Below are positions 4,311 through 32,973 of a stretch of DNA of 64,000 nucleotides, piece after piece. The DNA comes from Acidimicrobiia bacterium (GTDB lineage Bacteria; Actinomycetota; Acidimicrobiia; Spongiisociales; UBA5794). Made by a program: the position numbers and the translations under genes. The stretch is from assembly GCA_030065575.1 (NCBI GenBank), contig JASJDZ010000009.1, positions 1 to 64,000 on the forward strand. Direction: 5' to 3'. How positions within the stretch are numbered: the stretch's first letter is position 1; each line of letters begins with the position of its first letter. The notes under the pieces are model-generated. The model was given only the letters and a program-made list of their open reading frames with translations. It had not been told where the DNA came from and did not search any database.

Positions 4311-5293
4311 CACACGTTGGCCTTTCCACCTGCCAGCCCGGCCGCAATCAAGTCGGGAACACCACCTTCGACCGCCTCCGCTGCAGTGTCCACGGCATGG
4401 GTGATCGACAGCCGCGTAGAAGAACCGTGAGTGATGACGACCACCCCGCGCACGCCGAGGAGATGAGCGCCACCGTGCCGTTCCGGGTTGAGCTGCTCTC
4501 GCACGCCGAGCACCGCCGGCGCCAGGGTTTGCAATGCTTCTGCATATTGCGGGTCGGATACGGATTCGAGCAGCAGGCCGAGGACCATCTTCACGGCACC
4601 TTCGGCTGTCTTGAGAAGGATATTGCCGGTATAGCCATCGCAAACAACGACATTGGACTTGCCCGTGGCCAGGTCGGTGCCCTCGACGTTGCCGACGAAG
4701 TCGATATTGGGCAGCGCCTCCAGCAGCGCGTACGCTTCCCTCTCCAGCAACCGGCCCTTGCCCGCCTCTGCGCCAATGTTGAGCAAGCCAACGGTTGGCT
4801 CCGCAACGCCGTAATGCGTACGCGCCAGAGCGGCACCCATCACCGCAAACTGGGCAAGATCCGCGGCGCGACAAGTGAGATTGGCTCCCATGTCGAGGAC
4901 AACCGACCCGGACGGCAGATAGGAGGCAACGGCGGGACGGGAAACACCGGGCAGCCGACCGATCATGAAGGTTGCTGCGGCCAGGGCGGCGCCCGTCGAC
5001 CCGGCCGAGATCATCCCGTCGGCGTCGCCGTTCTTGACGAGGCGGGCCGCGACGGAGACTGAGGCATCACGTTTCTCACGAATGGCGATGGCGGGATCGT
5101 CCGCCATGTCGATCCGCTCCGAGGCATGGACGATGGGGAGATCGATGCCGGCGTCGTTGAGGATCGGTTCGATGCGCGCTTGATCTCCGACCAAAACGAT
5201 CTGGTGTCCGCGGTGGTGTGCGTCTATGCCACCGTGCACGATTTCCCTGGGTGCGTTGTCGCCGCCCATGGCATCGATCGCGATGGTGGCCAT
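4310..5293 (-). CDS. plsX: Phosphate acyltransferase PlsX
   Basis: MATIAIDAMGGDNAPREIV, SAGSTGA, GNVEG motifs; neighbour of rpmF. Confidence 0.95.
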   Translation of the reverse strand: MATIAIDAMGGDNAPREIVHGGIDAHHRGHQIVLVGDQARIEPILNDAGIDLPIVHASERIDMADDPAIAIREKRDASVSVAARLVKNGDADGMISAGSTGAALAAATFMIGRLPGVSRPAVASYLPSGSVVLDMGANLTCRAADLAQFAVMGAALARTHYGVAEPTVGLLNIGAEAGKGRLLEREAYALLEALPNIDFVGNVEGTDLATGKSNVVVCDGYTGNILLKTAEGAVKMVLGLLLESVSDPQYAEALQTLAPAVLGVREQLNPERHGGAHLLGVRGVVVITHGSSTRLSITHAVDTAAEAVEGGVPDLIAAGLAGGKANV

Positions 5294-16576: not shown

Positions 16577-17209
16577 CTACGAGTCGTCGCCGAGGATTCT
16601 CTGCTTCATCGCCTGGAACTCCTCCTCGGACAGGACCCCTTCGTCGCGGAGCCGCGCCGCCCGCTCCAGCTGTTCCGTTGGATCGCGGGTGATATCGGCA
16701 GCGATTGCGGATTCCTCCGCTGCGGTCTTGCGCGACTGTTCTTCCCGCGTGCGATAGAGCAACGATTGGAACCGCTCCGGGTTGGGGATATTGGTGAACT
16801 CGCTCTGGCCGCTCTCCCCTGCCGACTCGATGAGTAGATCACCCGACTTCAGGACTCGTTCGATGATGCTCTGGTTGAACAGGACGTTGTTGATGTTCTG
16901 CAGCGGCAGCTCGATCCCACTGCGCGCGATCATTCCGGTGCGGGTGATGAGCCGCTCGGTGGTCAGCACGTAGTAGGTGAACCACCAGTTGATCACCGGC
17001 GAGACGACCAGCGGGATCATGGCGAGAACGACGGCAGCGACGAGAGCGAGCGCAATCCACCCCTCTGCCTCTATCACCTGGAAAATGACCACGACGGCAA
17101 CGATGCCGCCGAGCAGCCACAGCGCCGGGATGGCGAGCATTCTCCAGTGAGGTCGGAATTGACTAACGACTGTCTCATCTTCGGTGAGGATGTTGTCTGG
17201 AAAAGCCAT
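16577..17209 (-). CDS. PH-domain (bPH2/YdbT-like) membrane protein with C-terminal SHOCT motif
   Basis: MAFPDNILTEDETVVSQFRPHWRM..., IELPLQNINNVLFNQSIIERVLKSGDL, C-terminal LRDEGVLSEEEFQAMKQRIL (SHOCT). The ORF-track extension to 17587 runs into the RNA1 locus and is rejected. Confidence 0.85.
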   Translation of the reverse strand: MAFPDNILTEDETVVSQFRPHWRMLAIPALWLLGGIVAVVVIFQVIEAEGWIALALVAAVVLAMIPLVVSPVINWWFTYYVLTTERLITRTGMIARSGIELPLQNINNVLFNQSIIERVLKSGDLLIESAGESGQSEFTNIPNPERFQSLLYRTREEQSRKTAAEESAIAADITRDPTEQLERAARLRDEGVLSEEEFQAMKQRILGDDS

Positions 17210-17317: not shown

Positions 17318-17592
17318 CGGAAAAACCCCGAGAAAGTCTCCGCCGAAGCGTCCACCCTCTCGGGGTTCTCCTTTCCCGGTCGGAGTCTTGCGACTCAACC
17401 GAGATGCCGTCCGGAACCGAGGTTCCAGCCGGACCGATCCTTCTCTGCCCGTGGGGCTGAACCACGAGGGCTCGGCCCCGGACTTCCCTTGCGGGGCGGT
17501 CACCTTGCCTTGCGGCCCGGCGACCCTTCCGGATCCCCGTGACCCCTTGCGGGGCCCCGGCTCCGTCGCTGCGGTCTCCCGCTGCAACGTGT
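17318..17592 (-). ncRNA. Candidate structured noncoding RNA 1 (about 270 nt)
   Basis: Minus-strand sigma70-like promoter (17599-17628), tetraloop hairpins (GAGA at 17571-17582; GCAA at 17543-17554, 17486-17495, 17507-17516, 17383-17396), and terminator hairpin with U-tract at 17321-17367; sequence blocks shared in the same order with candidate RNA 2. Confidence 0.75.
17321..17367 (-). terminator. Rho-independent terminator of candidate RNA 1
   Basis: Minus strand AACCCCGAGA-GGGTGGACGCTTCGGCGGAGACTT-TCTCGGGGTTTTT: 10-bp stem plus U-tract. Confidence 0.8.
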
Positions 17593-17598
17593 CACGGA

Positions 17599-17674
17599 AA
17601 GGTAGACGAGGCTGATCACTTCGGTCAAGCCGAAATGGTCACTTCATTTCGCGACTTTACTTTTTGTTTCGCGC
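17599..17674 (-). promoter_or_regulatory. Promoter/upstream element of candidate RNA 1
   Basis: Minus strand: CGCGAAACAAAAAGTAAAGTCGCGAAATGAAGTGACCATTTCGGC-TTGACC(17623-17628)-N18-TACCTT(17599-17604); matches the element upstream of RNA 2. Confidence 0.72.
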
Positions 17675-27707: not shown

Positions 27708-30700
27708 CCTTCACACCGACTGCAGAGCAGCGAGCGATCATCGAGTACCCGCTTCTCCCACTGCGCGTCATTGCGGGAGCCGGAACCGGCAAGACAACAA
27801 CAATCGTGCATCGGCTGGCTCATCTCGTCGACGCCGGTCTGAGCCCGGAGCGGGCAATTGGTATCACGTTCACCAACAAGGCTGCGGAGGAACTGGCCGG
27901 GCGCCTCCGCGAGGCTCTGCCCGGGCTGGCCGAGAACGGGCGCGAGGTCGAGGTGACCACGTACCACGGGTTTGCCTACGGCATTCTGCAGGAGTTTGGC
28001 GCCATCGTCGGGGTGGAACGCGACACAGAGGTTGTCGGTCCGGGCTACGTGCGACAACTGCTGCACGAGGCCATAGCCGCAGGGCAGTACGACACGCTCG
28101 ACCTCACCTGGATCCCGGCCCGGGTCGATGAAGCCGTCGATCTCTCAGCCCAGCTGGCCCGGAACCTGCGCACTGCGGCCGACATCGCACCGGGCGAAGA
28201 CGAGATCGCCGCAACCCGGAGCGAGATTGCCGCCATCGTGCAGCGATACGACGAGGCAAAGCGCGAGCTCGGAGTGCTCGACTATGGCGATCTGATTCTG
28301 CTGACCCACAAGCTCCTCACCAGCCATCCACAGATCGCCGAGCGGGTTCGGACCCGGTACTCGGTCGCACTGCTGGACGAGTATCAGGACACCGATCCTG
28401 CGCAACGGGAGCTGTTGCGAGCGGTGTTTGGCGGTGGCTTCCCGGTCACCGCAGTAGGGGACGCAGATCAGACCATCTACGAATGGCGGGGGGCGTCGAC
28501 AACGAACTTCGACAACTTCCCGGTCCACTTCCCTACTCCGGACGGAACTGCAGCGGAGACCCTACCCCTCACCGAGAACCGACGCTCGGGCTCGCTGATC
28601 CTCGAGGCGGCCCACGGCGTCCGCAGCGTGCTGTACGGCGACGAAGCGTTCTCTCCGCTGAGGCCGGTCGATACCGCCCCGCCGGGGGTGATTGGCCTGG
28701 ACTACTTCCGGACAGCGGTGGACGAGGCGGAGTGGATCGCCGAGGAGATCCTCAGGCTCAATACAGAAGAGGGTGTCAAGTGGCGCGACACAGCAGTCAT
28801 CTTCCGCAAGAACGGCGATATGGCGCTGGTGCGGGATGCTCTGCAGGCTCTCGATGTCCCGGTTGAGGTCGGATCGCTCGGCGGTCTGCTCGAATTGCCC
28901 GATGTGGCCGATCTTCATGCCTGGCTGCGGACCATCGAGCGGCCCGGCGATTCGATTGCCCTGGCTCGGCTCCTCCTCGGGCCGACGTACCGTCTCGGGC
29001 TCCGTGACATCGCCACGCTGAGCAACTGGATCAAACCACAGCGGGCGATGCTGGGGGACGACCCCGATCTCGGGTGGCCGCTGGTCGAGGCCATCGATCA
29101 GCTCGAGGAGATCGACGACATCCGGCCGGTGGCGCGAAAGCGACTTCTGGCGTTCCGACAGCTCTATCGCCGTTTTCTCGAACTCGCCCAGGGCTCGTCG
29201 CTCGTCGATCTCTGTCGTCACGTGCTCGACGAGACCGGCATGTGGAACGAGGTGGAGGCTCGCGAGGCAGGCGCCGCCCTGACCGCTCGGGTGAACCTCT
29301 ATCGCTTCCTCGATCTCGCCGAGGAGTGGAGCCCGCTGCGAGGGCGGCCGACCCTCCAGGCATTTCTCTCCTATCTCGATTTGATCGCCGACGACAAGTC
29401 CGCTGCCGAGCTCGATACGGCCAATGTCGGCACCGAGGACGCGGTTGTGCTGCTGACCGTCCATCGCGCCAAGGGGCTGGAATGGGATACGGTGTTCCTC
29501 CCGACGCTGACCGATGGGGTCTTCCCGGTTGGTCGCGGGGCATTTGATGATCCCGATCGCCTTGCCCGTTTCGTCCCCTACGAACTGAGGCTCGAGGCTC
29601 CTGTCCCGATTGAGCTCGAGGGCGAAGACCGGATCGACGCGCTGCGCGCCGTACGCAATCGCCAGGAGTGGCGGACCGCGTACGTAGGCATTACCCGAGC
29701 CAAGACCCGGCTGTATCTGACTGGTGCACACTGGCATGGGAGGGCCACGAAGCCACGCCCTCCCAGCCCGGTCATGGAGGCGGCGGCAACGGCTGCCGAT
29801 TTGGTGATCAACCACCGGGTTGACAATCCGGGCGAGCAACCGGAGACAATGTCCATCGTCTCCGCCGAGGGCGCACCCGACCCGCTATTCCCCGCCGGGT
29901 GGCGCGCTGCCCTCCAGGCCACCCTGGACGATCCGGGCTGGCCGAGAGAGCTAGTTCCAGGCGGCGCTGAGTCGTACGATGCCGCCGTGGACCAGATGCA
30001 CATGATTCTCGACGATCTGCCTTCCCCTCCGGGCGAGACGGCCGAGGAGGCCGGCGTCGACACGTCGGTCACAGGGCTGGTCACTCTTGCCGAATGCCCG
30101 CAACGGTTTTTCTGGTCTGAGGTCGAGCCCCTGCCGCGGCGCCAGGCACCCGCCATGCGGCGCGGGGTCAAGGTCCATCGGCTCATCGAGCTCCACGGTC
30201 GCGGGGAGATGCCTCTCGACGAGTTGGCGGACGATCTGTACGACGTCACTGCAGGCGACGAGCCGACCCCGGGCGGCCCCGATCCGTATCAGGTCTACCT
30301 CGACTCCCGGTTTGCCCACAGCAAGCCCCGCTATGTCGAAGCCCCCATCGACATCGGTCTGGGCTCAGGTCGCATTCGCGGGCGCGTCGACGCCGTCTAC
30401 GAATCGGAACCGGGCAGTTGGGAGATCGTCGACTTCAAGTCCGGCCGAAATGGGGCGAACCCGGCCGCCATCGTCCAGCTCGAAGCCTATGCGGTAGCGG
30501 CCGCAGATGGGGCTCTGTCCAGCGAGACCCCCGATGCCATCGCAGTCACCTTTGCCTACCTCGGCGGCGGGAATCTCGAGGAGGTGACGATTGCCGTCGA
30601 CCACGAGTGGCTGACCACCGCTCGGGCCCACCTCGAGTCGCTGCTCGACTCGGCATCGGGGCCCGATTACCCGCAGTCACCCTCCCCAGCTTGTCGACAA

Positions 30701-30763
30701 TGTGACTTCCTAAGGTTCTGCGACGCAGGCCGCACCTACGTGTCAGCCGACGCTGATCACTGA
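27704..30763 (+). CDS. UvrD/Rep-like helicase with C-terminal RecB nuclease domain (AdnB-like)
   Basis: [60 protein letters not shown] overlap with AdnA-like gene. Confidence 0.9.
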
Positions 30764-32118: not shown

Positions 32119-32973
32119 TCAATCGTCGTCATCATCATCGTCGTCATCATCATCATCGTCATCATCGTCGTCATCGTCGTCGTCGTCGTCATCATCATCA
32201 TCGTCGCCCTCTCCGCCAGGAGAGGCGTCATCGCCCGGCGGGGGAGGCGGATTCTCGGCCGGCGGCGGAGGCGGATTCTCGGCCGGTGGCGGAGGCGGAT
32301 CGTCGCCCTCTCCGCCAGGAGAGGCATCGTCGGCCGGTGGCGGAGGCGGGTCGTCGCCCTCTCCGCCAGGAGAGGCATCGTCACCCGGCGGTGGGACAGT
32401 GTCCGGTTCGTCAGATGAGATATCGTCGTCGACAGAGACTTCTTCATCCGAGGCCAACGCAGCGATCTCCTCTTCCCCGTCGGCTTCATCTAGGACGTCA
32501 CCGGTACCCGCCAGGACCAGGCCGAAGTCGGTCGCTTGCGGTTGCACTCCGCAGGCCGCCAGGGCCTCCGCAAAGGGCCGCACACGGGATTCCTCCGCGA
32601 CACAGTCGGCCCAATCCTGGACGGCGCCCACATAGGCCATTACCCCGGGATCGCCCGCTGCGGTCGTCGGCGTCACCGAAGACGAAGCCACCGTGGTCGC
32701 AGTCGCCACCGGCTGTTCCACCGTACTGCCTTCAGGTTGGAGCGCCGTGCCTGCGGTTGCACTGACTGCGGCCACCGCGACCGCACCGAGCATGATCCTG
32801 AGAAGAAGGCTGGAGGTGAGCACGGTGAACCAGGTGGCGCGGCGATGCACCCGGGGACGAGCGCCGGCGGTCTTCGTGGAGTTGAACTGATCAACACCGC
32901 ACGCCGCACAAAAACTGGTTCCGCTAACGCGTACGGCAGCGTCCACCCCGCAGAGGATGCACTGCTCACTCAT
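32119..32973 (-). CDS. Zinc-ribbon/TM protein with Pro-rich repeats and C-terminal poly-aspartate tail
   Basis: CILCG...CAACG, one TM segment, DDASPGGEGDDPPPPP repeats, then 28 consecutive Asp to the stop. Confidence 0.8.
   Translation of the reverse strand: MSEQCILCGVDAAVRVSGTSFCAACGVDQFNSTKTAGARPRVHRRATWFTVLTSSLLLRIMLGAVAVAAVSATAGTALQPEGSTVEQPVATATTVASSSVTPTTAAGDPGVMAYVGAVQDWADCVAEESRVRPFAEALAACGVQPQATDFGLVLAGTGDVLDEADGEEEIAALASDEEVSVDDDISSDEPDTVPPPGDDASPGGEGDDPPPPPADDASPGGEGDDPPPPPAENPPPPPAENPPPPPGDDASPGGEGDDDDDDDDDDDDDDDDDDDDDDDDDDDD
32122..32205. repeat. Trinucleotide simple-sequence repeat (ATC/GTC, 28 units)
   Basis: Uninterrupted (a/g)tc codon-unit tract encoding Asp28 on minus. Confidence 0.95.

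Follow-up and report, generated by a model that had tools for sequence, protein, structure and literature searches.

6S RNA is one long hairpin with a central bubble. In many Actinobacteria its niche is filled by Ms1 (PMC9130861, PMC4191392), which was identified by synteny with HAD-IB hydrolase / ssd genes (PMC9130861) and is high in stationary phase (PMC4191392). For naRNA4/REP325 of E. coli, a structured non-coding RNA, joint action with a nucleoid protein has been proposed (reviewed in PMC6907758). The raiA/ModT, OLE, ROOL, and GOLLD RNAs are lineage-wide structured RNA genes whose function was initially unknown (PMC11706538, PMC12286853).

The RNAs described here lie in a window of 64,000 nt, the whole stretch of DNA that was analysed, from an Acidimicrobiia genome. 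Like raiA/ModT, OLE, ROOL, and GOLLD they are lineage-wide and structured, but they are smaller and modular, with a body of widely variable length between conserved ends. A likeness to naRNA4 suits an RNA tied to replication genes, as an analogy and not a test; naRNA4 derives from a REP repeat, whereas the RNAs of this family are dedicated genes with a promoter, a terminator, and a fixed place. With CsrB/CsrC and RsmX/Y/Z they have in common multi-hairpin genes, a variable hairpin number, several copies, and an activator-type promoter, but they are without the GGA loop motif, and their promoter code and neighbours are unrelated. The likeness to 6S and Ms1 is that the family RNAs are autonomous, probably abundant, and present in a lineage without detectable 6S RNA. 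They do not take the hairpin-with-bubble shape of 6S RNA (RF00013), and in place of the HAD-IB hydrolase synteny of Ms1 their neighbours are adnAB, a PD-(D/E)XK nuclease gene, and bPH_2.

Using Rfam at the gathering threshold, no match was found at the RNA loci in the window or at 15 relative loci, and raiA, OLE, ROOL, GOLLD, RNase P, tmRNA, and SRP gave no curated-score match at these same loci; the RNase P RNA of this genome lies elsewhere. Permissive Rfam searches at RNA 1 gave sub-threshold chance matches only (AgrB, E = 0.05; ylbH, E = 3.9). The 6S RNA covariance model (RF00013) was matched in 0 of 59 genomes of the order, with controls detected. Literature on the CGCGAAA direct repeat, on RNAs of Acidimicrobiia, and on multi-hairpin sponges yielded nothing specific. 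The family, previously unnamed and without an Rfam match, may be new in kind as an RNA family and in its promoter code, and its mechanism may resemble a known one.

The layout of the first gene, RNA 1, is as follows.

17318..17592, minus strand: RNA 1, ~275 nt; 5' end placed by the -10 and 3' end by the terminator; kept in 6 congeners
17667..17673, minus strand: distal CGCGAAA box of RNA 1, a promoter element
17647..17653, minus strand: proximal CGCGAAA box of RNA 1, 20 bp from the distal box
17599..17628, minus strand: core promoter of RNA 1, TTGACC-N18-TACCTT; the -35 starts 25 nt past the proximal-box start

Boxes included, the complete small RNA gene spans 17673-17318 on the minus strand. 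The promoter proposed in the original prediction is indeed seen on this strand, with the -35 TTGACC at 17628-17623, an 18-nt spacer, and the -10 TACCTT at 17604-17599, and it is kept in all congeners. Transcription is predicted to start near 17592 and to end at ~17320, at a strong hairpin followed by a T run; throughout the family, starts were placed from the -10, and the genomes compared are MAGs or species representatives. RNA 1 is conserved over its full length at 76-84% in 6/6 other genomes of the genus. No reading frame of RNA 1 is open across all congeners, and a hidden protein was rejected since each frame is interrupted in some congener. Judged by comparative sequence evidence, RNA 1 is a genuine non-coding RNA gene of ~275 nt on the minus strand.

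RNA 1 folds at -160.5 kcal/mol against -128.7 +/- 5.4 in shuffles (z = -5.9). The consensus structure, from an alignment of seven species (A2), comprises 94 pairs with 98% of cells paired, arranged in eight or more separate helices.

17564..17589, minus strand: P1, 5' hairpin with a GNRA loop and a mismatched middle; such a hairpin opens at least 53 of 77 family members
17537..17560, minus strand: P2, GCAA hairpin
17436..17535, minus strand: multibranch domain with GATCC/GGATC closing and invariant GGAAG and near-invariant AGAA junction strands; contains P3, P4, and P5
17525-17498, minus strand: P3, inside the multibranch domain
17495-17486, minus strand: P4, inside the multibranch domain
17483-17447, minus strand: P5, inside the multibranch domain
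17406..17434, minus strand: P6, hairpin; 5 pairs changed on both sides among congeners
17373..17404, minus strand: P7, GCAA/GAAA hairpin
17318..17371, minus strand: terminator hairpin of RNA 1 with conserved interior CCCCGAGAGGG..GA..CTTCGG..; terminator model R1, E = 1.1e-17

Fourteen pairs are changed on both sides, compared with 6.9 +/- 1.7 in shuffles, none of which (0/500) scored as high; when the structure is slid by 1-3 columns, at most 4 pairs are so changed. Conservation is 0.93 at paired and 0.78 at unpaired positions and highest in the tetraloops (0.95). Within the multibranch junction GGAAG is invariant, and the opposite strand reads AGAA in 7/7 species; with such junction strands RNA 1 could have one specific fold rather than interchangeable hairpins. 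The hairpins named beforehand were largely recovered: GCAGCGG-GAGA-CCGCAGC is present as P1 (17589-17564), and the GCAA hairpins and terminator are likewise there, in an RNA whose fold and covariation (above 500/500 shuffles) stand out. A proposed 5' pairing CCGTGAC...GTCACGG fell away, as congeners do not keep its 5' strand, which would fall at the inferred start or upstream of it, and GTCACGG belongs instead to hairpin P2 in 7/7 species.

A second gene of the same plan, RNA 2, is located 5.5 kb from RNA 1 in the same orientation; it has its terminator in common with RNA 1, as had been noted from the letters.

22867..23726, minus strand: RNA 2, ~860 nt, paralogue of RNA 1; fold z = -7.9
23800..23806, minus strand: distal CGCGAAA box of RNA 2, a promoter element
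23780..23786, minus strand: proximal CGCGAAA box of RNA 2, a promoter element
23733..23761, minus strand: core promoter of RNA 2, TTGACG-N17-TTACGT, same plan as RNA 1
22867..22920, minus strand: terminator hairpin of RNA 2; model R1, E = 3.3e-17

Among five species, 53 of the 211 consensus pairs of RNA 2 are changed on both sides. The two terminators are 87% identical over 46 nt (E = 6e-9), the sole other match in the whole genome. The original prediction had argued for a paralogous family, and against two chance hairpin clusters, from three blocks A, B, and C in conserved order. The family claim holds; the reasoning behind it was mostly wrong. Only block C, the terminator, is common to both RNAs. 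With the terminator removed, the bodies do not align clearly above shuffled sequence in five species: shuffles scored as high in 20/300, 9/300, 242/300, 269/300, and 57/300 cases, marginal in two species (9 and 20 of 300) and no better than shuffled in three, and block B is not conserved in the RNA 2 of congeners. The terminator had been correctly picked out, and the strongest common feature, the paired CGCGAAA boxes upstream of each promoter, had been overlooked. With A and B unsupported, the case for paralogy is made by the promoter code, the terminator, the position, and the style of the body rather than by the order of the three blocks. A check for conservation of both loci in relatives had also been proposed; when run it was passed, RNA 2 being recognisable in 5 of 6 congeners and at a similar distance from RNA 1 where one contig carries both. 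From these comparisons RNA 1 and RNA 2 are predicted, firmly, to be independent neighbouring genes of one non-coding RNA family, each with a promoter of the sigma-70 type. A DnaA-box-like TTATCCACA is seen at 23848-23840 on the minus strand, just upstream of the RNA 2 boxes.

Neighbouring genes, identified by Pfam, provide the context of the two RNAs and are not part of them.

16577..17209, minus strand: gene for a bPH_2 + SHOCT protein, usual downstream neighbour of the last RNA copy
23899..24717, plus strand: stand-alone PD-(D/E)XK nuclease gene, divergent from RNA 2
24645..30763, plus strand: two UvrD-helicase/PD-(D/E)XK genes of adnA-adnB type, conserved neighbours

The RNAs adjoin adnAB or the neighbouring nuclease gene in 20/20 fetched loci, usually with bPH_2 on the other side; loci were taken from search listings and not randomly drawn. 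Further along the window, at 32119-32973 on the minus strand, is an ORF with proline/glycine-rich repeats followed by a long terminal aspartate run.

Beyond the window the family extends throughout one order of Acidimicrobiia. In a BLAST search, 72 of 149 relatives matched the 3' end of RNA 1. Within the order, the terminator covariance model R1 was positive for 86 of about 95 genomes; its match counts include antisense matches because the terminator is nearly palindromic. Named genomes with the terminator pattern are mostly Acidimicrobiia or Actinobacteria MAGs, with a few labelled otherwise. Both RNAs of the window carry the family traits, i.e. the terminator interior CCCCGAGAGGG..GA..TTCGG (E = 1.1e-17 and 3.3e-17) and paired CGCGAAA boxes with TTG 25 nt after the second-box start. 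In all, 77 distinct RNAs of 93-859 nt, falling into several subfamilies, were extracted; the RNA 1-type subfamily extends to a second family of the order. Each locus has 1-3 copies on one strand, each copy with its own promoter and terminator. Outside the terminator, in the RNAs of 20 loci and the window, GNRA-capped hairpins number 145 (26.9 +/- 5.4 in shuffles) and UUCG-capped hairpins 71 (3.8 +/- 1.9 in shuffles). A 5' hairpin capped by GNRA, rarely by UUCG, and often mismatched in its middle was found by a simple rule in 53/77 RNAs, and pairing of the P1 outer stem exceeds all shuffles at most positions (49 distinct sequences). One homologous hairpin (group c3) has GCAA in some species and TTCG in others; this swap suggests that the loops serve stability and that loop identity is not what is read there. 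The existence of the gene and its family membership are near certain, and there is very little doubt that the family is one of autonomous, conserved non-coding RNAs.

No terminator was found in viral contigs, on which ground a phage or mobile origin was rejected; two box matches in viral contigs lie inside apparent coding sequence, with the RNA absent. Near-identical mini-copies, each with a box pair, a promoter, a short body interrupted by Ns, and a terminator, were noted at two unrelated places of one genome (L182, G025:C9; L183, G025:C41), one of them downstream of rpsR; read from sequence, they are evidence of probable recent dispersal.

The promoter code is strict. From the start of the proximal CGCGAAA box to the TTG is 25 nt in 70/77 family promoters, and the boxes are spaced by 20 bp in 59 promoters and by 21 bp in 18. 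The box-promoter pattern occurs in about 80 genomes of the order and in a handful of about 200 other Acidimicrobiia, whereas a reversed control pattern gave about four matches. Outside the main RNA loci 48 exact box sites were fetched, which were listed or chosen for follow-up and are not a random sample. Two genes recur among them.

L176, L138-L140, L158, L159, L161-L164, L177-L179, L181, L184: loci with a box pair at dnaA
L126, L127, L129, L130, L132-L137, L141-L144, L160, L180: loci with a box pair at nrdJ

At dnaA the pair lies 200-406 bp upstream on the same strand in 15 genomes, including this one (L176, G000:C78:28500-32500) and three of another family (f12, about 1.1 Mb). At nrdJ, the gene of the B12-dependent ribonucleotide reductase, it lies 269-465 bp upstream in 16 genomes, and a further promoter, which has NrdR-like and DnaA-box-like sequences, comes after it. 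Some of the remaining sites precede f6 members of the RNA family, and one lies between rplI and dnaB in opposite orientation. The box pair at dnaA is, we infer, an unrecognised promoter signal of replication genes, and the RNAs probably share regulation with these genes. In most genomes outside one family the exact box pair is found mainly at RNAs, so co-regulation with dnaA and nrdJ is shown for only part of the order.

How such RNAs act can be weighed from these data. The preferred overall explanation, which we hold tentatively and somewhat short of probable, is that they are replication- or growth-timed, trans-acting RNAs serving as multivalent protein-binding platforms. A putative DNA-binding activator would occupy both boxes, which lie near -60 and -80 with two helical turns between them, and would turn on the RNAs together with dnaA and nrdJ, so that they would be produced in step with chromosome replication or growth. 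The stable, nuclease-resistant RNA would then act in trans by binding a hairpin-recognising protein in several copies at a time. It would thereby either sequester that protein, as CsrB does with a different one, or gather it into a particle or onto the nucleoid, on the model of naRNA4 and HU in E. coli. A trans-acting platform is suggested by the many-fold variable body length with both ends kept, the autonomous stable hairpins, the tandem copies, and the lack of a shared unpaired seed. A body of 93-859 nt between kept ends points to a repeated unit rather than one fixed shape, and since hairpin number varies more than five-fold between species, dose and valency are proposed to outweigh any one fixed shape. 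The multivalent protein platform taken by itself is plausible at a shade less confidence than the overall explanation. Bodies do not align outside the closest relatives, so a single common partner is an assumption.

The main rival is an RNA standing in for 6S/Ms1, which would bind RNA polymerase and tune transcription to growth state. The missing 6S RNA in 59 genomes with working controls, the precedent of Ms1 in many Actinobacteria (PMC9130861, PMC4191392), and strong promoters suggestive of an abundant RNA all speak for it, but chains of separate hairpins in very variable number are unlike one long hairpin, the neighbours are adnAB and bPH_2 and not the HAD-IB hydrolase genes of Ms1, and boxes in common with dnaA and nrdJ suggest an RNA of active growth, unlike Ms1 with its high expression in stationary phase (PMC4191392); we consider it unlikely. 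Slightly less likely again is a base-pairing regulator acting on mRNAs via unpaired stretches: many family RNAs are of sRNA size and RNA 1 has the conserved purine-rich unpaired strands GGAAG and AGAA, but it is mostly paired, its unpaired positions are the less conserved (0.78 vs 0.93), and no single-stranded seed is common to the bodies of different families.

Control in cis, by a leader or attenuator whose terminator is switched to control the downstream bPH_2 gene, would fit the last RNA copy, which in most cases stops 35-160 bp short of a bPH_2 gene of the same strand, and CCCGAGAGGG within the terminator could form a competing GAGA hairpin. Tandem copies, each with promoter and terminator, and loci without bPH_2 make this improbable: such a gene is lacking downstream of RNA 2 and of the other upstream copies, the families represented by L064, L065, and L068 keep RNAs without detectable bPH_2, and most congeners share a conserved TATGAT immediately ahead of the bPH_2 ATG. 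A Csr-type decoy for CsrA would share the CsrB/RsmZ plan of variable-length multi-hairpin RNAs in several copies behind an activated promoter, and CsrA is encoded in this genome. CsrA is, however, present in 9/59 genomes searched in the order and missing from the other 50, against an RNA terminator in 86 of about 95, and the loops are GNRA and UUCG, not GGA; its rarity excludes Csr as a general answer, and the decoy is highly improbable. Chance hairpins in GC-rich intergenic DNA, or a REP-type repeat, have the least credence of all. High-GC DNA folds well and one genome (G025) carries its two near-identical extra mini-copies elsewhere, but most genomes show no dispersed copies, and viral contigs yielded none; covariation above all shuffles, one-place synteny across families, strict promoter spacing, and a 5-18-fold tetraloop excess refute chance as a general explanation.

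The multivalent platform reading has a bolder extension, which is speculative and unlikely: the RNAs would form a clade-wide, replication-phase class and would act on the chromosome itself as scaffolds in nucleoid organisation, replication control, or AdnAB-type repair, under a dedicated activator that would recognise the paired CGCGAAA boxes and switch on dnaA, nrdJ, and one to three of these RNAs together. Within its order the RNA family is kept with the constancy of a core gene, but Rfam does not contain it, and its promoter code is its own. Through that code it is tied to the initiation of replication (dnaA) and the supply of dNTPs (nrdJ), and the timing of replication in Acidimicrobiia becomes open to direct test. 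Judging by their titles, the carriers are metagenome assemblies, so the RNA would have had little chance of turning up in genetic work.

Beyond the order, in family f13 of the class (L171, G142:C77, about 4809-5200, minus strand), adnA and bPH_2 are separated by a multi-hairpin RNA whose hairpins carry GCAA loops; this unit has a strong promoter and a related terminator and no CGCGAAA boxes. Terminator matches also recur, more weakly, in f23, and those elsewhere in the phylum mostly do not rise above background. The f13 unit and the f23 matches hint that the RNA family may be older than its promoter code.

Several box pairs were seen at other genes. In L128 (G002:C27) and L131 (G003:C489) the pair immediately precedes the gene of a conserved protein of 262-268 aa that has no Pfam match and by eye resembles a coiled coil. 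In L145 (G018:C155) and L165 (G026:C96) it is upstream of a small conserved ORF, after which L145 has Flp pilus genes of the RcpC/CpaB type. Genus g47 of family f2 (L150-L156), where the RNA terminator is absent, has several box pairs at a longer distance from the TTG, mostly with GTTGGGCCC-CCCCC(G/A)CC after them, perhaps a diverged use of the same signal.
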